Shown one piece after another: positions 3,380-24,681 of a stretch of DNA of 64,000 bases (positions within the stretch are counted from its first letter, which is position 1; each line of letters starts with the position of its first letter). The notes below the pieces were generated by a model, which did no database searches, was not told the DNA's origin, and saw only the letters and a program-made list of their open reading frames with translations. This DNA comes from Acididesulfobacillus acetoxydans (GTDB lineage: Bacteria; Bacillota; Desulfitobacteriia; Desulfitobacteriales; Desulfitobacteriaceae), in contig NZ_LR746496.1 of the NCBI RefSeq assembly GCF_902729405.1, positions 1,550,001-1,614,000 of the forward strand, given 5' to 3'. The position numbers and the translations under genes were made by a program.

Positions 3380-4621
3380 ATGTCGAAAAGTCCTGAAGAG
3401 CTATGCCAGGAAAGATTAAAAAGGGTAAAAGATGCTGTTGCCCTTAAGGTCCCGGATAGAGTACCCGTGACTGCCTTCTTTGCCTATTTTGCCGCCAGTT
3501 ATTCCGGGATAACATACGAGGAATATACGTATGATCCTGAAAAGATGCTTAAAGCGGCAATCAAAGTGCATGAAGACTTCGAGCCTGATTTAGCCGATAT
3601 TCCGAGTATCTACTATCTTGGACCGACGTTAGATGCTGTCGGATTTAAGCAGCTAAGATGGCCGGGCCGGCACCTTAGTGCCAACAAACCTTATCAATTT
3701 GTTGAAGGGGAGTACATGAAAGCCGACGAATATGGACATTTCTTGGACGACCCCACCGATTGGCTGATTAGAAAATATTGGCCCAGGATTTGCACTGAGT
3801 TTGAGCCATTTAGCCAAATAGCACCGTTAAAATATAGCTTTACGTATTTCAACATGGGCTCTTTAGCACCGTTTGGCACTCCCGGATTGCAGCAGGCGTT
3901 GAGTGCTTTAAAAAATGTTGGAGAAGCGGCTTTACAGGCACTTAATTATACGGTCAAATTTAGCGAGGAAATGGGAAAAAGAGGCTTTCCCTTGTCGCTG
4001 GGCGGACTCACCCAGGCACCCTATGACACGCTGGGTGATTATTTCAGGGGAACACGAGGCATCATGATGGACATGTATCGCCGACCAGACGAGCTCCTCA
4101 AGGCGTTGGACAAATTAACGCCTTGGATGATTGAACAGGGCGTAAATGCAGGAAAACAGTCTGGAAATCCGTTCATCTTTATCCCTCTTCATAAAGGCTC
4201 AGACAAGTTTATGAACCAGCGACAATTCGAGACGTTTTATTGGCCAACACTTAAGGAACTAATGCTGGGCTTGATAAAGGAAGGGATGACCCCGATTGTT
4301 TTTGTTGAGGCCGACCATACTTCAAGGCTCGAAACTATGAAGGACGTTCCGCCGGGGAAAGTTGTTTACCACATGGAAAATACAGATATGTTTAAGGCCA
4401 AAGAAATTCTTGGCGACAGAGTTTGCCTAAAAGGAAATGTACCGGTGTCCTTACTGTGTTTAGGTACTCCCGATGAAATAAAAGACTATTGCAAGAAATT
4501 AATTGATGTAGTGGGCAAGGATGGTGGTTTTATCTTAGACAGTTCAGTAAATGTCGAAGAGGCTAAGGTGGAAAATGTTAGGGCGATGTTTGACTTTACA
4601 AAGGAGTATGGCAGATATTAG
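3380..4621 (+). CDS. substrate:corrinoid methyltransferase, uroporphyrinogen-decarboxylase fold
   Basis: This 413-residue protein of the URO-D superfamily (MtaA/CmuA/OdmB-like) has the usual opening, RVKDAVALKVPDRVP, near residue 15. It lacks the H-x-C zinc motif of MtaA. The equivalent place reads VYHMENTDMFKAKEIL, followed by a Cys in RVCLKGNVP, the same pattern as in the protein at 7674. Long URO-D proteins of this kind, next to a corrinoid protein, act in O-demethylase systems as methyltransferase I, which takes methyl from an aryl methyl ether. That role is inferred from context. A GAGGAGGG ribosome site lies 10 nt before the ATG. Confidence 0.8.
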   Translation: MSKSPEELCQERLKRVKDAVALKVPDRVPVTAFFAYFAASYSGITYEEYTYDPEKMLKAAIKVHEDFEPDLADIPSIYYLGPTLDAVGFKQLRWPGRHLSANKPYQFVEGEYMKADEYGHFLDDPTDWLIRKYWPRICTEFEPFSQIAPLKYSFTYFNMGSLAPFGTPGLQQALSALKNVGEAALQALNYTVKFSEEMGKRGFPLSLGGLTQAPYDTLGDYFRGTRGIMMDMYRRPDELLKALDKLTPWMIEQGVNAGKQSGNPFIFIPLHKGSDKFMNQRQFETFYWPTLKELMLGLIKEGMTPIVFVEADHTSRLETMKDVPPGKVVYHMENTDMFKAKEILGDRVCLKGNVPVSLLCLGTPDEIKDYCKKLIDVVGKDGGFILDSSVNVEEAKVENVRAMFDFTKEYGRY

Positions 4622-5706: not shown

Positions 5707-6354
5707 GTGGACGAGCCATTGGAATTGGCCATGGGTGAACTCGATGAAGAAAAAGTCCTGGCCCTGGTCGAAGAGCGGATTCAGGCGGGCGTCAGCCCGA
5801 CAGAGATCGTAGAAAGCTGCCGCAATGGGGTAGAAATTGTGGGCAGGCGCTACAGCGACGGGGTGTATTTTCTCTCGGATTTGATCATGTCCGAGGAGAT
5901 TTTCCGGGGCGTGATGCGCCTTGTCGAACCTCACATTCCGCAGGGGGAGGCGACAAACGGCTATACGGTTGTCATGGGTACGATCGAGGGTGATATCCAT
6001 GACCTGGGGAAAAACATTATTATTTATCTCTTGCGTTCGTCCGGTTTTCGTGTCTATGACTTGGGGGTCGATGTTTCGCCGGAACGGTTTGTTCAGGCTG
6101 TCAGCGAGACGAAAACTTGCATTCTCGGGATCAGTGTTCTCCTTTCTTTCTGCGTCGGCTCGATCAAGAAGGTTGTTGACCTTTTGGAGGAGGCGGGTCT
6201 GAGGGACGAAGTCAAGGTGGTTGTCGGCGGCTACACGGTCAGTGAGCTGGTGCGGGAATATACCGGGGTGGACTACTATGCCGGTGATGTGTCTCAGGCG
6301 CTGCGAATTATCCGGGAAATCGTGAATGCAGATTGTCCGCAGCGAAAGAACTGA
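5707..6354 (+). CDS. corrinoid (cobalamin-binding) protein, second copy
   Basis: This 215-residue protein has the same two-domain build as the proteins at 2677 and 9089: a helical cap, then a B12 domain with DIHDLGKN near residue 98 and VVGGYTV near 175. The GTG start at 5707 follows GGGAGGAGGTAG at 5690-5701. It lies 21 nt after the GntR gene, so regulator and corrinoid protein are probably co-transcribed. No methyltransferase follows it directly; the next operon starts at a new promoter 60 nt downstream. It may serve the methyltransferases encoded on either side. Confidence 0.85.
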   Translation: MDEPLELAMGELDEEKVLALVEERIQAGVSPTEIVESCRNGVEIVGRRYSDGVYFLSDLIMSEEIFRGVMRLVEPHIPQGEATNGYTVVMGTIEGDIHDLGKNIIIYLLRSSGFRVYDLGVDVSPERFVQAVSETKTCILGISVLLSFCVGSIKKVVDLLEEAGLRDEVKVVVGGYTVSELVREYTGVDYYAGDVSQALRIIREIVNADCPQRKN

Positions 6355-15297: not shown

Positions 15298-15612
15298 ATG
15301 ACCAGAGCGCAGCAGCAAAAAGAATGGGAAACCCGGGTCGCTGACTTCTTGAACAGCGGGCAAAGTGCTACAACATGGTGCGCAGCGAATGATGTAAAAC
15401 CTCATCAACTATGGTACCGGGTCCATAAGCATAGGATGGAGCACGATGTTCTGGCCGAAAATCCAGCCAAATGGCTAGCGGTCGAGGTTGGTGACAATAT
15501 ATCCGGTGGGATTTTGCGAGTAGACGTGGGTCGAGCCAGTGTTGAAGTAAAGCCTGGTTTCGATCCTGCGCTGCTGGCCGCTGTGGTCAAGACTTTGGTG
15601 AGCCTATGCTAA
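15298..15612 (+). CDS. tnpA: IS66 accessory protein TnpA
   Basis: This 104-residue protein begins TRAQQQKEWETRVADFLNSG and contains a helix-turn-helix (QSATTWCAANDVKPHQLWYRVHKH in two helices), the usual form of IS66 TnpA. The ATG is preceded by GGGGAGGA. It overlaps tnpB by 7 nt, as in other IS66 elements. Confidence 0.88.
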   Translation: MTRAQQQKEWETRVADFLNSGQSATTWCAANDVKPHQLWYRVHKHRMEHDVLAENPAKWLAVEVGDNISGGILRVDVGRASVEVKPGFDPALLAAVVKTLVSLC

Positions 15613-15962
15613 GTGAAATCGGCGTTGAGCGAGTTTACCTCGCCCGCGGAGCGACGGATCTGCGTAAGTCGATTGACGGGCTGGCCGTGCTGGTCAAAGA
15701 AGGCTTTCAACTCGACCCGTTTTCTCCCTGTCTCTTTGTCTTTTGCAATCGGCAATGCGATAAGCTGAAAATCCTTCATTGGTCTCACAACGGCTTCTGG
15801 CTATATTATCGAAGACTGGAGCGCGGCAGATTTCAATGGCCCACCGAAGCAGGCTCTTTAACGGTCAAGGTGAGCTACCGCGAACTACGTTGGCTGCTTG
15901 ACGGCCTATCGCTAGAGCAGCGGCAAGCTCATACAGCCGTTACAGCCCGTACGGTCTTGTGA
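15606..15962 (+). CDS. tnpB: IS66 accessory protein TnpB (Orf2)
   Basis: A 118-residue TnpB with the family marks VYLARGATDLRKSIDGLA, FVFCNRQCDKLKILHW and GFWLYYRRLERGRFQWP. It starts inside the end of tnpA and is probably translated by coupling. It is required for IS66 transposition, but its biochemical role is unknown. Confidence 0.92.
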   Translation: MLSEIGVERVYLARGATDLRKSIDGLAVLVKEGFQLDPFSPCLFVFCNRQCDKLKILHWSHNGFWLYYRRLERGRFQWPTEAGSLTVKVSYRELRWLLDGLSLEQRQAHTAVTARTVL

Positions 15963-16049: not shown

Positions 16050-17390
16050 ATGGATACAGCATCAAACGTGATCATGACAACAGAAGATATTCGGGCGCGC
16101 TGCCTTAAGCTTGAGAAGCAAAACGAGCGGCTCCAGCGGGAAAATGCCCAACTAAACGCCATGCTTGACTGGTTTAAGGAACAGTTGCGTTTAGGTAAAC
16201 ACCGGCAGTTCGGGACTTCCAACGAGCGAACGATTCTTGGGGTAGAGCAACTTAATCTTTTCAACGAAGCAGAAAAGGAAGCCCAACCCCTGCAAGAAGA
16301 ACCGGCCTTCGAAACGGTCACCTATCAACGGCGTAAACAGCGGAATCACCGAGAAGTGGTGCTCGCCGACCTGCCAGTTGAGAGGATAGAATACAAACTG
16401 CCTGCCGAAGAGCAGGTCTGTTCGTGTTGCGGCGGCCCTTTGCACGTCATGAGCACTGAGGTACGGCAAGAGCTTCAATTCATACCCGCCCAAATGAAAG
16501 TCATTGAGCATGTACGCGAAGTCTATTCCTGCCGCCACTGCGAGCGTGAGGAAATCAAGACGCCCATCGTAACGGCGCCGATGCCGGCTCCGGTACTTCC
16601 TGGAAGCTTCGTGTCTCCTTCTCTCATGGCTCATATCATGAACCAAAAATATGTAGAAGGAATGCCCCTTTATCGCCAAGAGCAGCAGTTTGGCCGATTG
16701 GACCTTGAGTTGTCTCGTCAGACGATGGCGAACTGGATGCTCTATGGAGCGAAGAAGTGGCTGACTCCTCTTTATGACAGAATGCATTGGCATTTGCTCA
16801 AGCAGGATATCCTTCAGGCGGACGAGACAACGCTGCAGGTGCTCCATGAGCCGGGCCGGGCCGCGGAGACCGATTCCTACATGTGGTTTTACCGCACCGG
16901 GCGTATGGGTCCCCCCATCGTGCTTTATGATTACCAGGAGACCCGAAGCGGCCAACACCCCCGCCAATTTCTCTCCGGTTTCAAAGGCTACCTACAGGTT
17001 GATGGCTATGGCGGCTACAACGGATTACCGAATGTGACTTTGGTAGGCTGTTGGAGTCATTCGCGGAGGAAATTCAATGAGGCTTTGAAGGCCCTGCCTC
17101 CTGCAAATCGCTCAGCACTAGTCGCCGCTAAAGAGGGACTGGAATTTTGTAACCGTCTCTTCGCCATAGAACGCGATTTGAAAGACGCGACTCCGGAAGA
17201 ACGTTTCAAAAATCGATTGGCACGCAGCCGTCCCGTGCTGGATGCCTTTCTGGATTGGCTCTATAAACAACAGGCCCAAGTACTGCCGAAGAGTACCTTC
17301 GGTCGGGCGATTCAGTATTGCCTTAACCAATGGGACAAACTCGTGGCCTTTTTACAAGAGGGACGACTGGAAATCGATAATAACCGCAGC
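16050..17390 (+). pseudogene. tnpC: IS66 transposase tnpC, 5' part
   Basis: The first 447 codons of the IS66 transposase: a leucine-zipper-like N-terminus (LKLEKQNERLQRENAQLNAM), a zinc-finger-like CSCCGGPLHVM...CRHCE, and the DDE core with LQADETTLQVL and VDGYGGYNGL. The frame is broken after EIDNNRS by the element at 17391. It rejoins in frame at 21549 (ERSIKPFVIG), which would restore about 531 residues. Confidence 0.9.
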
Positions 17391-17477
17391 TTATCCTCAT
17401 CTTTAGGAAATCCTCATCATTCCTCGGGCATGCGCTGGCGCAACATCGCTTGAGAAAAAGATGAGGATTTCCTGATT
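17391..17477 (+). repeat. left 87-bp terminal inverted repeat of the RIT-like element
   Basis: The sequence from TTATCCTCATCTTTAGG to AGGATTTCCTGATT matches the inverse of 21430-21516 with 5 mismatches in 87. It contains two direct and one inverted ATCCTCAT words, probable recombinase-binding arms. Confidence 0.85.
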
Positions 17478-17480
17478 ACT

Positions 17481-18509
17481 CTACCTCAGCCCGCACATCC
17501 TTGCCATGGCATCCTCGTCCCCTTCCCATATGGGTTTTTCGTCTGGCATGAACCCATTGGCGGATTCCATTGCTTTTTTTAGCATCTCAATTGACGGGGC
17601 GGCGTAAATTTTGGTGGTTTCGGTGGAGCTGTGCCCCAGTATCCTCGAAACAAGCTCTAGCGCCACACCGCTTTGGTAAAGGTTTGTGGCTCTTGTCCTG
17701 CGGAACATATGGGGGTAAACCTTGTCTGGCAGGCTTGGGAACTCGCCGCGTATTGAATCCGCGTACTTGTTGATGATCCTCTCGATGTTGCCAGGAGAGA
17801 CCCGGTGGCGGGCGCCCTTTATCACGGTATAGAACAAAGGCGTATTGCCGCTGCTGGCATTACCATGGAACGCATGGATATAATGTCTAAGATGCTCGGC
17901 TGCCTTGTCAGACAATGCGACGATCCTATCTTTGTTGCCTTTCCCCCGAACCCGTACATACGGCTCAGCGACAGCCAAGTTCGCATCGGACAGGAGCATC
18001 CCGGTCAATTCGCTGAGCCGGACGGCTGTGTCATACAGCAGAATCATAATCATTTGGTCACGCCTTCCGATCCTGTTTGCCTTCGGGGCAGTAAAGATTG
18101 CCGCCAGGGCTTCCCCCGAAAGGGTTCCCCTGTTCAGTTTCGGCTCCCTTTGAAAGGGGACATGCGACGCGGCCAATGCGGATGGCTGGAGAGCAATGTC
18201 GCAGTCCGCGCAGTACCAAAGGTATGACTTGATTGCAGTCAGGCGTTGGTTGCATGTGCCTGGGGAACTCCCCTTTTCTTTCAAGAAAACCATGAAATCC
18301 AACAGGAATTCCCTCGTGCAGTCCTGAAAAGAGAACTTTGCAATTGAAAGCCCCTTCTCGTTGTGGACGTACCGCCTGAAAACAGTCAAAGCGTCCCGGT
18401 ATGACCTGACCGTGCATGGGCTTTTGGCCGCCTGGTTGACCAAGTAATTGCCGAGGAACTCTGCCGTCCTCGAAAAGAACAGGCTGACCGCCAGTTTGTC
18501 AGTTTTCAT
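17481..18509 (-). CDS. tyrosine recombinase, third gene of the trio
   Basis: A 342-residue phage-integrase-type recombinase. The N-terminal SAM-like domain (SRTAEFLGNYLVNQA) is followed by the catalytic domain with Arg in DTAVRLSELTG, HMFRRT (His-x-x-Arg), LGHSSTETTKIYA with the His and the nucleophile Tyr. ATG 18509 lies within the last codons of the preceding gene, so translation is coupled. All catalytic residues are present. Confidence 0.9.
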   Translation of the reverse strand: MKTDKLAVSLFFSRTAEFLGNYLVNQAAKSPCTVRSYRDALTVFRRYVHNEKGLSIAKFSFQDCTREFLLDFMVFLKEKGSSPGTCNQRLTAIKSYLWYCADCDIALQPSALAASHVPFQREPKLNRGTLSGEALAAIFTAPKANRIGRRDQMIMILLYDTAVRLSELTGMLLSDANLAVAEPYVRVRGKGNKDRIVALSDKAAEHLRHYIHAFHGNASSGNTPLFYTVIKGARHRVSPGNIERIINKYADSIRGEFPSLPDKVYPHMFRRTRATNLYQSGVALELVSRILGHSSTETTKIYAAPSIEMLKKAMESANGFMPDEKPIWEGDEDAMARMCGLR

Positions 18510-19482
18510 ATGCGGCAACCTCGGGAAGCACCCTGCCGGAAACGGCATCTTTCTCTTTGACTATGCGGAATGCGTCCTTTACTTGGTGGTAATAATAGAA
18601 AGTTTCATTCCTGCCTTTGTGCCCAAGGTACTTGCTCAGGTATGGCATCATCACATTCAGGTCCGCGCCGGATGACATCCACGTGTTCATCGTTTCGACA
18701 ACAAACGTATGCCTGAGGCAATGGACCGTCGGATTCTTGTCGCAAGTATTTGCGTATGGCGTCTTTGCCCAAAAGCCGCTGAATTTTTTGTCCAAGCTTG
18801 TTTTTGGCATGTGCGCCCGCGGGTCTATGGAGGGGAAAAACCACTCCGGGATTGCCGCAAGACTAAGACATATATGATCCCAATAGTCCTTCAACACCGC
18901 CTTCAAATCGTTGGCCAGGTAAACGATCCTGTCTTTGTCGCCTTTGGAGTGCTTGACGGTTATTGCACCATTTTCCAGATCCACGCAGTCCCTGCGGAGG
19001 CTGCAGGCTTCGGATATCCTGAGCCCGCAACAGTAGATCAGCCGGAATATGACACGGTATTCACCGGCCAGCCTGTAGAATACGGGCCGTGGGACGCTCG
19101 GCACGTATGCGTCAACGGCTGCAAAGAATGATTGGATTTCATCCCTGTTCATTACGTGGGGGACCGGGGTTTGGGCCGAGGGCGCTTTGCCCGGGACGTA
19201 TGAGCTGATCCCAATTGAATTGAGGTAAACAGAGAACAGCCTCACGAACGACACCATCTGTGCGCGGGTCCCGTTTGAAACTAGAAGGAATCTCCTGTTC
19301 CAGTCATCCATGATGCATTTTGTGATGGCACCGCCATGGTATCCATTGGCCGCGTAAAAATCGTCGAAGGCCTTCAGGACACTCGCTTCATAGTCATATA
19401 TGAAACCGGATGAGCGTTTCTGGGCAATGAAGTCGGATATATGGGCGCCAAGCTCGCTGGCATAGGCATAATCCTTGCTCAT
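18499..19482 (-). CDS. tyrosine recombinase, second gene of the trio
   Basis: A 327-residue recombinase with Arg in CCGLRISEACSLRRD, the HCLRHTFVVE box, and YLGHKGRNETFYYYHQ with His and Tyr. The ATG at 19482 overlaps the TGA of the preceding gene (ATGA), with GGAGGGAGG shortly upstream. The gene overlaps the next one by 11 nt. The three proteins probably act together as a hetero-complex, as proposed for RIT elements. Confidence 0.9.
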   Translation of the reverse strand: MSKDYAYASELGAHISDFIAQKRSSGFIYDYEASVLKAFDDFYAANGYHGGAITKCIMDDWNRRFLLVSNGTRAQMVSFVRLFSVYLNSIGISSYVPGKAPSAQTPVPHVMNRDEIQSFFAAVDAYVPSVPRPVFYRLAGEYRVIFRLIYCCGLRISEACSLRRDCVDLENGAITVKHSKGDKDRIVYLANDLKAVLKDYWDHICLSLAAIPEWFFPSIDPRAHMPKTSLDKKFSGFWAKTPYANTCDKNPTVHCLRHTFVVETMNTWMSSGADLNVMMPYLSKYLGHKGRNETFYYYHQVKDAFRIVKEKDAVSGRVLPEVAAYEN

Positions 19483-21377
19483 AGGGACAGGCCTCCCTCC
19501 AACTGGATACCTGCTTCCGCAAGGGACATGGCGCAAAGCCTCATCCGCCCTTCGTCCAGCGACAGATACTTATTGACAGTGTCATCCGTGCTGTGCCCCA
19601 AGGAGTCAATGATGGTGTTCACGCCAACCCCGGCCCTTAGGAGATTGGTGGCAAACGTTCTCCGGGTCGTGTGGAAGCCGCCGCGAGCATTTTCGCCCAG
19701 TATGGCATGTATTGCTTGTCCGCAGGCTTCTTTGCCCAGTTTCCCGAACGGCACCCTATGGTGGATGAAAAGGAAAGGGGACTCGCTGCGTGGACGCCCG
19801 TCGCGCACATACCCGTAAAGTAAGTTAGCCACTTCAACGGGCAGCGGCAAGCTCAGGGACTTGAGTGTCTTCGTCTGGACAATCGACACTGTCTGCTTCG
19901 CCCAGTCAATATCCGCGAATTTGAGATTGACAATATCCGATGCTCGCAATCCCATCCGAAGGCCCAGTAAGACCATTGCCGACTGGCGGAGTTCGTAGGG
20001 AGCGGCGCTGCCACGGCAGAAAGCCGCGATCCTGGACATATCGTCGTCGTTGAAAACAACCGTGACTCTTTCCTTGTCGGCGCATTGGCATTGTAGTGCT
20101 TTGTGCAGCATAGGCTTGTCCGACAGGACCCCTTCTTCCAAGTATTCCAGGAACATTCTTATCCGCACATTATAAGCGCTTTTCCCCTCGGCAGTTTCGT
20201 GTGGGTCCAATCGGTTGAACAACACCAGATGATTGGCTTCGATGTCGTGGAACGATGATACTCCTTGGGCAACAAGGAAGGCGCAGAAACGGACGCATGA
20301 AGAGCGGCACATGTCAATCGACGACCTTGCCAGCCCTTCTTTCCTGCGCAGCTCAAGGTATTCCGTGACTTTATCCACGCACCACCGCGGAAGCCGCGAC
20401 AAAGACGTGTCTTTGTATCTGTATACCTTTTCCGGGGCAATGTCCCCGAGCGTAGCGTACTGATTGAACTGCATCAGCGCGCGGCGGGTTTGCTTCCAAC
20501 TACTGCCCAAGGCAGGCTTCAGTTCCGAAAGCCAAAGCAGGCCGAGCTCCAGCGAGTACCCGGTTCCGTTCATGTCGAAGAACAAATACAGGAGCCTGCA
20601 GGTGCGCTTTGCGTGTTTTATGATATTCTTTGAGTACAGATGTTTTTTGAGGCAGTCCACATAACCGTCGATGGCATTGTGGTATTTCGCCAAAGGAAAG
20701 CCAAGGCTTTTGCTCCTGAGCCTGATAACCTCTTCGATGGCGCTGTCTGACATCTTAGCCGGCGGCTGGATGTGCGGTGACATTTGCTTATTGCAGGCGT
20801 ATGACAGCCCGATGCTTATGCCAAGCTCGCGATGGTGGAATGCCAGCAGCCGACGGGCGGCACATTCGAACACGTCCTTGGATTTCCTTGTCTTATGGGT
20901 ATCTTCATCAAGGAACTGGCGGATATGGCTATAGGTTGTTTCCGCTACGGAAGACACGCCTCTCTCCTGCAAGAACAGGAGAAAATTTGAACATCGCATC
21001 CGCATGTTCTCTCGCATGTTCTCAGTCTCGATGCTGTCCAAGAACATGCCCAGTTCCTTTGCGAGCGTCCCCGACAGCATCGCGAACGGCGGAAAATGAT
21101 GCGATAAATGATAGGCCGGGATTCCGCCCAGCCGATCCATGTCGTCCAGATGGACGATGAAATACCTGTAATTGGCGGATTTCCTCCGACCCCAGCGCTC
21201 GCTTTCCTGCTTGATCCAGTCCAACGCTGTCTCAAATGAATAGCCAAACTCTGCCTCAGTCAGGTGCGTCCGCAATTCGCTGTAACATTTCTTGTGTGCG
21301 CACACGGTCGATGCCGTGTATTTCTGTTCCCTCAGAAAGGCAACAACTCTCTCCACGCTCTGGTCAAATTGATTCAT
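19479..21377 (-). CDS. tyrosine recombinase, first and longest gene of the trio
   Basis: A 632-residue protein whose C-terminal about 200 residues are a tyrosine recombinase: Arg in GLRMGLRASDIVNL, FHTTRRTFATNLL (His-x-x-Arg) and LGHSTDDTVNKYL with His and Tyr. The about 400 preceding residues hold one or more further core-binding segments. The start at 21377 has GGAGG at 21387-21391; ATG 21395 would leave this site inside the gene. Confidence 0.88.
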   Translation of the reverse strand: MNQFDQSVERVVAFLREQKYTASTVCAHKKCYSELRTHLTEAEFGYSFETALDWIKQESERWGRRKSANYRYFIVHLDDMDRLGGIPAYHLSHHFPPFAMLSGTLAKELGMFLDSIETENMRENMRMRCSNFLLFLQERGVSSVAETTYSHIRQFLDEDTHKTRKSKDVFECAARRLLAFHHRELGISIGLSYACNKQMSPHIQPPAKMSDSAIEEVIRLRSKSLGFPLAKYHNAIDGYVDCLKKHLYSKNIIKHAKRTCRLLYLFFDMNGTGYSLELGLLWLSELKPALGSSWKQTRRALMQFNQYATLGDIAPEKVYRYKDTSLSRLPRWCVDKVTEYLELRRKEGLARSSIDMCRSSCVRFCAFLVAQGVSSFHDIEANHLVLFNRLDPHETAEGKSAYNVRIRMFLEYLEEGVLSDKPMLHKALQCQCADKERVTVVFNDDDMSRIAAFCRGSAAPYELRQSAMVLLGLRMGLRASDIVNLKFADIDWAKQTVSIVQTKTLKSLSLPLPVEVANLLYGYVRDGRPRSESPFLFIHHRVPFGKLGKEACGQAIHAILGENARGGFHTTRRTFATNLLRAGVGVNTIIDSLGHSTDDTVNKYLSLDEGRMRLCAMSLAEAGIQLEGGLSL

Positions 21378-21429
21378 GGAATCATACCTCCTCAAAAGAT
21401 GATTCCATTATAGCCACATCTAATCAGGC

Positions 21430-21516
21430 AATCAGGAAATCCTCATCTTTTTCGCAAGCAATGTTACGGCAGCGCACGCCCGAGGAATGATGAGGATTTC
21501 CTAAAGATGAGGATAA
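21430..21516 (-). repeat. right 87-bp terminal inverted repeat of the RIT-like element
   Basis: Inverse partner of 17391-17477 with 5 mismatches. It carries the same two direct and one inverted ATCCTCAT words. Confidence 0.85.
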
Positions 21517-21548
21517 GCTGCGAAATCCTCATATGAGGATTTCGCAGC
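21517..21548. repeat. 32-bp perfect palindrome at the right junction
   Basis: GCTGCGAAATCCTCAT joined to its own reverse complement ATGAGGATTTCGCAGC. It lies just outside the right 87-bp repeat, ends in the target repeat CGCAGC, and has no counterpart at the left junction. The core is two facing ATCCTCAT words with no spacer. Confidence 0.85.
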
Positions 21549-21803
21549 GAGCGCTCGATCAAACCTTTCGTCATCGGACGTAAAAATTGGCTGTTCTCGA
21601 ACACCTCACGCGGAGCCAAGGCTAGCGCTACGATTTACTGCATTGTAGAAATGACGAAGGAAAATGGACTGAATCCCTTCCGATATCTGAGTTACCTCTT
21701 CGAGAAGCTCCCCAACCTTAACCTTGGGGATGAGGACACCTTGGATGCCATGCTCCCCTGGTCCGAGTCCTTGCCGAATCTCTGCAGAGTTAACCGACAA
21801 TAG
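21549..21803 (+). pseudogene. tnpC: IS66 transposase tnpC, 3' part
   Basis: The last 84 codons of TnpC: ERSIKPFVIGRKNWLF, then SRGAKASATIYCIVEM and YLFEKLPNL, ending at TAG 21801. It joins in frame to the 5' part at 17390 if the recombinase element and one CGCAGC are removed. Confidence 0.88.
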
Positions 21804-22895: not shown

Positions 22896-23105
22896 TTGGC
22901 TCTCCCTGGCGTTAAGCTTCCGAACCTGGCCTCCAAGATTTTGTCTCTTAACGTAAAGAGGCTGTCCTCCGATTGGCAAAGGATTTATGGCCACCCCATT
23001 GTACTGGCAGAAACGTTTGTCGACCCCTCGCTTTTCAAAGGAACGTGCGATCTGGCGGCAGGATGGATCCGTCTCGGTGAAACCCGTGGGTTTGGCCGGA
23101 ATGCG
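22896..23105 (+). pseudogene. fragment of a DUF4338-type protein
   Basis: About 70 residues match the family: LPGVKLPNLASKILSL, then LSSDWQRIYGHPIVLAETF, FVDPSLFKGTCDLAAGW and GETRGFGRN. Everything before and after is missing; the next DNA belongs to an ATPase on the other strand. The normal protein is about 300 residues or is fused to a transposase. A remnant. Confidence 0.6.
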
Positions 23106-23568
23106 GAATGCGCTGCGCGAGCGGAATCAGGGCAGGTAATTTCAAAATAGTCGGCAGCGCCGGTTGACCCAGAAGCATTAAAGTGACAACGGCTTCGTGC
23201 TTACCGGTTGCATTGGTCAGTAAGCGGAGTTCATTCAGACAGGTGGGCGTTAAGATATGGGCTTCGTCGATCACGAGCAAATTGGGACGATTCGACTCCA
23301 GATAGGAATAAGTGAGCAGATCCACTACTTTGAGGGCGTCGGCCCCAAACCAAGAGGTATTCACTCCCAGAGAGGCTGCAATAGAGCGATAGAGGTCCCG
23401 TGGTCTGGCTTGCGGAATCGAAATAGGGATCACCCGGTAGCGGGAACCCTCAACCTTACTCAAAAAGACATCAAGTAAGGTCGTTTTGCCGCTACCGGCT
23501 TCGCTCACGACCACCCCGATTTCACGGGTGACCAGCAAGGGCTGGAGGCGATCCATGGCCTCATCCAT
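23100..23568 (-). pseudogene. IS-associated AAA ATPase (ExeA/TniB-like), truncated
   Basis: The core of an AAA ATPase that partners a DDE transposase: Walker A EAGSGKTTLL and Walker B LLVIDEAH, followed by LLGQPAL and LPALIPLAQRI. The normal N-terminus seems present upstream only out of frame, and the C-terminus is lost at about 23100 against the DUF4338 fragment. The matching transposase remnant lies just upstream on the same strand. Confidence 0.72.
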
Positions 23569-23761
23569 GCGCTTGTCCGCAAATGCGTGTTGGAGTTGAG
23601 CAATTTTAGGGAAAGGCCAGTGAATTAAGCCCCCGATATTCCAAAAACGTCTGGGTGACTAATTCACCACAGCGTACATTTGATTCAGTCCTTTCGTCCT
23701 TCTTTTTCTTGATTTTCTTGGCTTATGTCGTTCCGTTTATGGGGGGTACAAGGGCCAAAGT

Positions 23762-24593
23762 TCATTTTCCCGCCGCCAAACGCAAAGCGTCCAAACAGCC
23801 CATGAGGTCTGAGACGGGATGGCCTTCCGCAAGCAGACGCCCGACACTTTGACGGACCCACGTTTCCGGCCAAGGCCCATAGTGCTGCTAGACCGTGGCT
23901 AGAGCCAGGCGTTCCCGCGCATCCAAGGGGCGTTTCAAGAGCGTGCTCATTAACTGGGCACAACGGTCGAGACCCCATTTGGGTGCCTCGGTTTTCGGAG
24001 GGCCCGGTGAAGAGTCGGGGGAAATGACCGCGACCGGAGTCAGTGCGGCTCGGATTTGCTCCTTCTTCGCCAAGACCTGTTTCAGCGATTCGTTGAGCTC
24101 CCCTTCCGCGACTTCCTGACGGTACTCGGCGAGTTTATGTTCCAGACGGCTATAGGGCGGAACATAGGCCGCGTCCGGCAAGGAGCCGCTTTCCTGAACT
24201 TGTTGGCTAAGCTTCTCTAGGTATTCCACCCGCAAAACATAATCGTTTTCCGCCACATAGAGGTCGGCTTCGCCATAATAACGGTCACGCCACCAGACAT
24301 AGATTTGCGTGGGATGCAAGAGGTCACAGTGCACTTCCCCCCATTGCTTGTAAAGAGTGGCATCCGGAACCAAGTACTTCTGCTGGTTCAGGTGGATGAG
24401 ACGGTCTTGGAAACCTTGGAGCGACGGCAGGGCGAGAAAACCAGAGTGAGGACTTCCTGGGAAACAAACGGCGGTACTGGGGCGGAAAGTGAAAGAACCT
24501 TTCTTTAGGGCTGTGACCGGTTTCGGAATGCACTTTCCGGTGATAGTCCTGGCTCGTGAAAGCGGCGAGATACTCGTTGGCTTCCTCCAGCAT
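23762..24593 (-). pseudogene. DDE transposase C-terminal remnant, frameshifted and with an in-frame stop
   Basis: The first piece (FTSQDYHRKVHSETGHSPKERF) is in one frame. The next (HLNQQKYLVPDATLYKQWG, YVWWRDRYYGEADLYV) is in another, a frameshift near 24450. A TAG at 23888 interrupts it, after which the frame continues HYGPWPETWVRQSVGRLLA to a stop at 23762. This is the C-terminal half of a transposase paired with the ATPase at 23100. The N-terminal catalytic part is gone. Confidence 0.68.
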
Positions 24594-24651
24594 GGCCTGT
24601 CAGACGGAATGGGAATGAGAAAATATTTTCTAAAAAATCCAAAGTAAATTA

Positions 24652-24681
24652 TTGTCCGCATGTACATACAAGTGATATACT
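24652..24681 (+). promoter_or_regulatory. araR promoter with AraR-like operator
   Basis: The -35 is TTGTCC (24652-24657), with an 18-nt spacer and the -10 TATACT (24676-24681). The spacer holds ATGTACATACAAGT, close to the AraR operator type TTGTACGTACAA. AraR binding here would block its own promoter, so autoregulation is likely. Confidence 0.6.

Follow-up and report, generated by a model that had tools for sequence, protein, structure and literature searches.

A RIT element in an IS66 transposase gene and the inheritance of six-base-pair spacers among its relatives

The closest described counterparts of the element analysed here are the RIT elements of Cupriavidus (pHG1, CH34), with which it has in common three overlapping genes (ritABC), inverted repeats at the ends and a palindrome (PMC3414803, PMC2864759). 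In RIT elements, inverted repeats and an overlapping palindrome flank ritA and ritC (PMC3414803), as they do here; a canonical RitA combines two sequential core-binding domains with a catalytic domain, and RitC has an additional helix at its C terminus (PMC8138268); insertion of the CH34 element in IS66 has been reported (PMC3414803, PMC2864759). Since the first description of RIT elements, both their way of moving and their need for three recombinases have been open questions. In a 2012 survey their ends proved difficult to match to known recombinase sites, and a table from 2023 gives "not tested" for mode of movement, empty site and target specificity alike. Here we describe a RIT element in the window, by which we mean the whole 64,000-nucleotide stretch of DNA that was analysed, and compare it with relatives in other genomes and plasmids, whose short spacers appear to record where each copy has been.

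The insert in IS66 tnpC and its three recombinases

The target element lies on the plus strand, where IS66 tnpA (15298..15612; NF047593) and tnpB (15606..15962; PF05717 / NF033819) are followed by a tnpC gene (PF03050 / NF033517) that is cut at DNN-RS|ER, adjoining a conserved glutamate, by a 4.16-kb insert. The 5' part of tnpC (16050..17390, plus strand) runs to DNN-RS and ends before the conserved Glu of NN-xx-ER; the 3' part (21549..21803, plus strand), assigned by frame continuity after removal of the insert, begins ERSIKPFVIGRKNW.., and deletion of 17391-21548 restores a single uninterrupted frame (..LEIDNNRSERSIKPFVIGRKNW..), as the original prediction had anticipated. The insert measures 4158 bp when the right 6-mer, interpreted below as imported, is counted.

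The element can be written as x-M-[E]-I-P-O-y, with three 6-bp spacers (M, I and O). The rit block, E, spans 4126 bp on the minus strand (17391..21516), with ends TTATCCTCAT..ATGAGGATAA. Its 87-bp inverted repeats lie at 17391..17477 (plus strand), where subterminal copies of the half-site ATCCTCAT are found, and at 21430..21516 (minus strand); the inverted arms span 93 nt at 95% with the 6 bp included, hence 87 bp without. M (CGCAGC, 17385..17390, plus strand) adjoins the ritC end of E. On the other side, I (GCTGCG, 21517..21522, plus strand) is the reverse complement of M, and P (21523..21542, plus strand) is a perfect 20-bp palindrome, AAATCCTCATATGAGGATTT, which consists of two half-sites back to back (AAATCCTCAT.ATGAGGATTT) between GCTGCG and the right CGCAGC. 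This last 6-mer is O (21543..21548, plus strand), at the P end. Counting the inverted copy at 21517-21522, the element thus has three CGCAGC 6-mers, and I lies in the middle of a complete core site, ATGAGGATAA-GCTGCG-AAATCCTCAT. The repeats and flanking CGCAGC had been correctly located from the sequence at the outset; at the right end the repeat and CGCAGC were recognized, and the inverted third 6-mer and the palindrome, on which the account of movement given below depends, were missed.

The three overlapping genes foreseen are all present on the minus strand: ritC (17481..18512, 343 aa), ritB (18499..19482, 327 aa) and ritA (19479..21395, 638 aa from TTG, or 632 aa from ATG at 21377), with overlaps of 4 bp between ritA and ritB (ATGA) and 14 bp between ritB and ritC. 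All three products match PF00589, the third (RitC) at 1.6e-28. The catalytic residues of RitA are conserved (R484, K509, H575, R578, H601, Y610) and those of RitB are intact; RitC is judged solely from its strong PF00589 match. In a tree of 105 Rit proteins, RitA forms one clade (SH-aLRT 99), and RitB and RitC each form one clade of 34 with the broken L115 frames set aside; the window proteins group with those of L034 and L035 inside clades that also hold pHG1. With each recombinase placed in the RitA, RitB or RitC clade together with pHG1, the insert is a RIT element in IS66 tnpC, and the phylogeny proposed as a check agrees with what had been predicted.

Two features depart from the archetype, in which RitA has 410 aa (638 aa here, with duplicated core-binding domains) and the inverted repeats are about 28-34 bp (87 bp here). 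By profile comparison, RitA residues 1-97 correspond to CB1 (probability 98.1, E 9e-14) and residues 103-205 to CB2 (probability 98.8, E 1e-16), which makes the N-terminal extension a duplicated CB1-CB2 pair; the catalytic domain follows. An AlphaFold prediction of RitA (two sequences) reached pLDDT 40, and the duplication rests on the profile comparison instead. The likeness of this protein to Tn554 TnpB that had been suggested is not supported: RitA is longer because its own pair of core-binding domains has been duplicated internally, and the protein lies inside the RitA clade, in a tree composed of Rit proteins only. RitA of 629-647 aa also occurs in L034, L035, L036 and L037, and intermediate forms of 528-543 aa in L106, L107 and L082. 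As a guess, the long extension may go with the 87-bp ends.

Searches of its own genome for the ends, the IS66 flank and the intact IS66 returned the window copy alone, and a plasmid DNA search with the element returned no match. The same genome contains three more RitB-like genes (G000:C1, 1620105-1621058, 1547691-1548434 and 1356904-1357650), the first two of which flank the window just outside each side; the first (L128) showed no recognizable P layout, and neither of the other two yielded a parsed trio. Elsewhere in the window, ORFs at 23035-24667 (minus strand) resemble a truncated IstB/TniB/ExeA-type AAA ATPase beside a Mu-like transposase fragment.

Layout and empty sites in relatives

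The x-M-E-I-P-O-y layout recurs in 43 RIT elements, of which 42 were parsed; the remaining one (L081), whose end is displaced by cargo, was added manually. It is common to the classical pHG1 element, in which it is the same as in the window, and to Priestia, Rhodococcus, Phaeobacter, Sphingobium and many Firmicutes elements. The parser scored end similarity and palindromicity alone and was blind to spacer identity; about one third of the trio loci examined were unparsed, owing to contig ends, decay, and rearranged or unrecognized ends, and the counts leave out L079, L105 and truncated or decayed loci. Over the 43 elements, 5.1-5.3 of the 6 positions match between the three spacers; shuffling gives a mean of 1.77, and the best of 2000 spacer shuffles gives 2.58. 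This three-spacer agreement is far beyond chance. All three spacers are equal in 21 of the 43 elements and not all equal in 22, the latter comprising seven with rc(I) = O, five with M = rc(I), four with M = O and six with all different; L034 is in the rc(I) = O class owing to its 1-bp insertion, and discounting it leaves 21/43 unequal. P lies on the ritA side in 25 elements and on the ritC side in 18.

The nearest relatives share the target as well. L034 has an E that is 93% identical to that of the window and sits at another target, at homologous codons of another IS66 transposase (NN-QG-ER in L034, NN-RS-ER in the window). The inner and P-side spacers of L034 are CAGGGT, and its E-side copy is the same 6-mer shifted by a 1-bp insertion. 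The inserted base, an A lying between ACCCTG and the end of E (4382-4388), either breaks the 6-bp rule by one position or reflects misassembly of this metagenome-assembled contig. L036, with a 647-aa RitA, occupies the same IS66 site as the window element with a different 6-mer, TTGGTA.

Some loci depart from the simple plan. L081 (G272:C43) has a 445-aa ORF (1403-2740) between the outer inverted repeat (1221-1307) and ritA, and at least this one RIT element seems to carry cargo. L079 (G368:C1; 3181-3212, 6673-6704) has P on both sides, with apparently the same IS66-target half on both sides, and L105 (around 2849-2878, 6270-6299) lacks P and has target-like sequence on both sides; they look as if two inverted RIT copies had recombined with each other, and are probably the reciprocal products. 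In G488:C1 (848145-851678), the ritB of a RIT element is in two pieces ~2.5 kb apart, as if another element interrupts it. L136 (G113) and L137 (G132:C1, 195000-204000) are the same RIT element with identical flanks in the genomes of two species, which suggests recent transfer of a larger segment.

For two elements in which M differs from O, a near-identical uninterrupted target is available. Priestia plasmids of ATCC 14581 and DSM 32 carry GGCATGT-GTGAGT-TCATG, which in the occupied Priestia L042 reads GGCATGT-[GTCAAC-P-GTTGAC-E]-GTGAGT-TCATG; a Sulfitobacter plasmid carries GAGCT-GACCCA-CTGG, and the occupied Phaeobacter site reads GAGCT-GACCCA-[E-TGGGCC-P-GGCCCA]-CTGG. At both sites the native 6-mer has stayed beside E, the one flanking P arrived with the element, and nothing is duplicated. 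As M is native and O imported at these two sites, the repeat at RIT ends is not a target duplication, and annotations that call it one should be corrected. For the window element, whose closest IS66 in the family is 52% identical, neither an empty site nor a near-identical sister copy was found, and its history is therefore read by analogy. The CGCAGC pair should accordingly be read not as a target duplication but, by analogy with the empty sites of the two relatives, as a native left copy (M) and an imported right copy (O).

Spacer pedigrees and a proposed two-site circle

Copies with E 99.9-100% identical were compared, each written as (M, rc(I), O). The comparison points to a shift rule by which a child carries (new target, parent M, parent rc(I)), with P on the other rit side. 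The rule was formed on G275 and G247 and then tested on plasmid copies outside that set. G275 has four copies, their 3448-bp E 100% identical, in which c2 (CAAGGG,TAAAGG,TAAAGG) fits as the parent of c3 (TAAAGG,CAAGGG,TAAAGG), CAAGGG being a rare spacer; a RitB search across the order of G275 found no further copies. In G247 (E 99.94% identical), L077 (TCCACC,ACCCCC,GCCGCC) corresponds in the same way to L076 (GCCGCC,TCCACC,ACCCCC), and the O of L077 also equals the M of L076, a coincidence for which shared codons are the sole explanation. The plasmid copies, with E 100% identical, follow the same pattern. Within one strain, Phaeobacter P13, L094 (GACCCA,GGCCCA,GGCCCA) precedes L162 (GGCCCA,GACCCA,GGCCCA). 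In Phaeobacter inhibens, L165 (CACGCA,GGCTCA,GGCCCA) precedes L163 and L164 (both GGCCCA,CACGCA,GGCTCA) as well as L167 (GACCCA,CACGCA,GGCTCA), and L167 precedes L168 (CACCCA,GACCCA,CACGCA), giving a three-generation chain, L165 to L167 to L168. All seven informative pairs obey the rule exactly and show a flip of the P side, and no pair with such spacers lacks it; none of 20,000 within-family shuffles reaches seven pairs (mean 1.4). Spacer diversity is limited because the targets are conserved motifs. The copies L163/L164/L167, and likewise L098/L169, have equal inner and outer spacers and the same P side with different M; we read them as siblings, but a second route through the new joint that keeps O would fit them equally well, and ten ordered pairs are compatible with that route, which the data do not require. 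Read from the aligned copies, then, are the inheritance of spacers, the side of P in the seven pairs, the native M with imported O, and the anatomy.

We suggest, with considerable confidence, that the insert is explained by a two-site circle with a spacer shift. The mobile unit would be the rit block E together with the 20-bp palindromic P, with 6-bp spacers between them. Recombination of attL (x-M-E) with attR (P-O-y) at the outer ends would form a circle whose new joint retains M. In such a circle, each E end would carry a core site composed of a half-site, 6 bp and an inverted half-site. One of these two equivalent sites, which have P between them, would be the new joint and the other the former inner site; it is through this second one that integration would proceed, the target's native 6 bp remaining at the E end and the old inner spacer becoming the P-side outer spacer. 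Cleavage would fall at the spacer side far from E in excision and at the near side in integration. Each generation would thereby move P to the other rit side, and M would denote the present target, rc(I) the previous one and O the one before. In the window, where M, rc(I) and O are all CGCAGC, the last three targets would have shared the same IS66 codons. The circle, the recombinase chemistry, the pairing of Rit proteins with half-sites and the fate of the donor copy belong to the inferred part of this account. A parent and its child are found together in G275, in G247 and on two plasmids each of P13 and of Phaeobacter inhibens P66 (the strain of L163-L165), which fits copy-out, short of proof. 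A bolder version is an obligatory two-phase cycle, in which a replicatively made circle inserts only via the formerly internal site, every copy is a three-generation target pedigree, and three recombinases are needed because two types of half-site (E end and P) are cut on different strands at excision and integration; we put this forward tentatively, as a conjecture that may well fail.

Among the alternatives, one would have E invert in place between inverted core sites, the two-site circle not being the transposition route. The inverted identical core sites on E make such an inversion chemically plausible. However, copies with P on the other side sit at different targets, and an asymmetric P (G132, G247, G275, Phaeobacter F2) appears there in reverse complement with respect to the target, so that the integrated forms are circular permutations of one circle and not in-place inversions of E. 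We consider this alternative improbable. In-place inversion of E as a means of equalizing spacers was also considered and was rejected because of the orientation of P.

It is still less probable that integration depends on overlap homology, with the fixed 6-mer of a circle inserting only at an identical target 6-mer. Spacers within a family are indeed alike and the targets are conserved codons, yet elements with 100%-identical E sit at differing 6-mers in Priestia (GTTGAC, ACTCAC) and in Sphingobium (CCGAAA, GCGGAA), and an identical E is found in Phaeobacter at CACGCA, GGCCCA, GACCCA and CACCCA. Similarity of spacers may aid target choice; identity is not required.

Just as hard to sustain is a route like that of Tn554 or of the strand-biased circularizing integrative elements (SEs), a strand-biased circle with one site in which P is a passive decoration. 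It would have the same 6-bp logic as that of SEs, with flank in the circle, native 6 bp at one end and a fingerprint at the other (PMC10214605). Nevertheless, P is present in every parsed element, where it forms a second complete core site; this second site is used in all seven pairs, and the genes are RitABC.

Finally, an ordinary 6-bp target duplication, in which staggered cuts and a hairpin fill-in of the inner copy would make all spacers copies of the target, agrees with the three equal spacers of 21/43 elements, of the window and, bar the 1-bp insertion, of L034, but has almost nothing left to recommend it given that 22/43 elements (21 if the L034 shift is discounted) have spacers not all equal, that the P-side 6-mer is unlike the target at both empty sites (Priestia, Phaeobacter), and that the inner spacer tracks the parent and not the present target. 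That all three spacers are copied from the target was our initial hypothesis, formed on four elements, and was contradicted by Priestia L042, L083 and L088.

Targets and comparison with known systems

Target motifs were read from reading frames by inspection of the flanks. Insertions were found at the IS66 codons NN-xx-ER (window, L034, L036), GCW-AH (L090, L091) and LGRKNW (L098), at the GKT loop of IS21 IstB (L081, L083, L085, L088, L115), at (S/T)KG or KGNVE of IS21 IstA (G275, G368), at PQ-GG of a group II intron reverse transcriptase (G247, L084) and at HExxH of ArdC (Priestia, Phaeobacter), and P faces one constant target side within each target family examined. Many targets thus appear to be conserved codons at the active sites of other mobile elements (IS66, IS21, group II introns, ArdC). 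This niche resembles that of homing elements and would explain a constant supply of sites for elements that destroy mobile elements.

The two-site circle with its spacer shift would turn existing genomes into recorded transposition experiments, in which parent, child and sibling can be named. It would also permit base-by-base prediction of the circular intermediate and its two sites, and the order of strands could be inferred. We found no description of the 6-bp spacer logic in the open RIT literature, although an earlier mention in a 2013 RIT phylogeny paper is possible.

Related logic is known from other systems. GInt elements (ginABCD; PMC5385486) likewise have three recombinase-type genes and circular intermediates, and their attI sites vary by a few flank nucleotides, but they possess a fourth gene, ginD, and large cargo, with no P module reported, unlike the RIT element of the window. 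Tn554 (TnpA, TnpB, TnpC) shares the 6-bp footprint without target duplication (as summarized in PMC10214605) and one abnormally long recombinase; its third protein is TnpC-like, whereas the third gene here encodes a full tyrosine recombinase, and its ends and P differ. SEs work alike: their circle takes up 6 bp from one flank, one end keeps its native 6 bp, the imported 6 bp mark the other, and the target is not duplicated (PMC10214605). The same cleavage asymmetry has been reported for them, and a strand-biased copy-out route has been proposed (PMC10214605). Native and imported 6 bp of this kind were found at the empty sites of the two relatives, and by analogy would apply to the window. However, SEs combine IntA, Tfp, IntB and Srap with one joint site, whereas only three recombinase genes, and not the IntA-Tfp-IntB-Srap set, lie between the ends of the window element. 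Because its third gene is a full recombinase and it has no Tfp or Srap gene, the window element is neither an SE nor Tn554. RIT elements instead have three full recombinases and a second core site supplied by P, which would give them alternation and a longer history than that kept by SEs.
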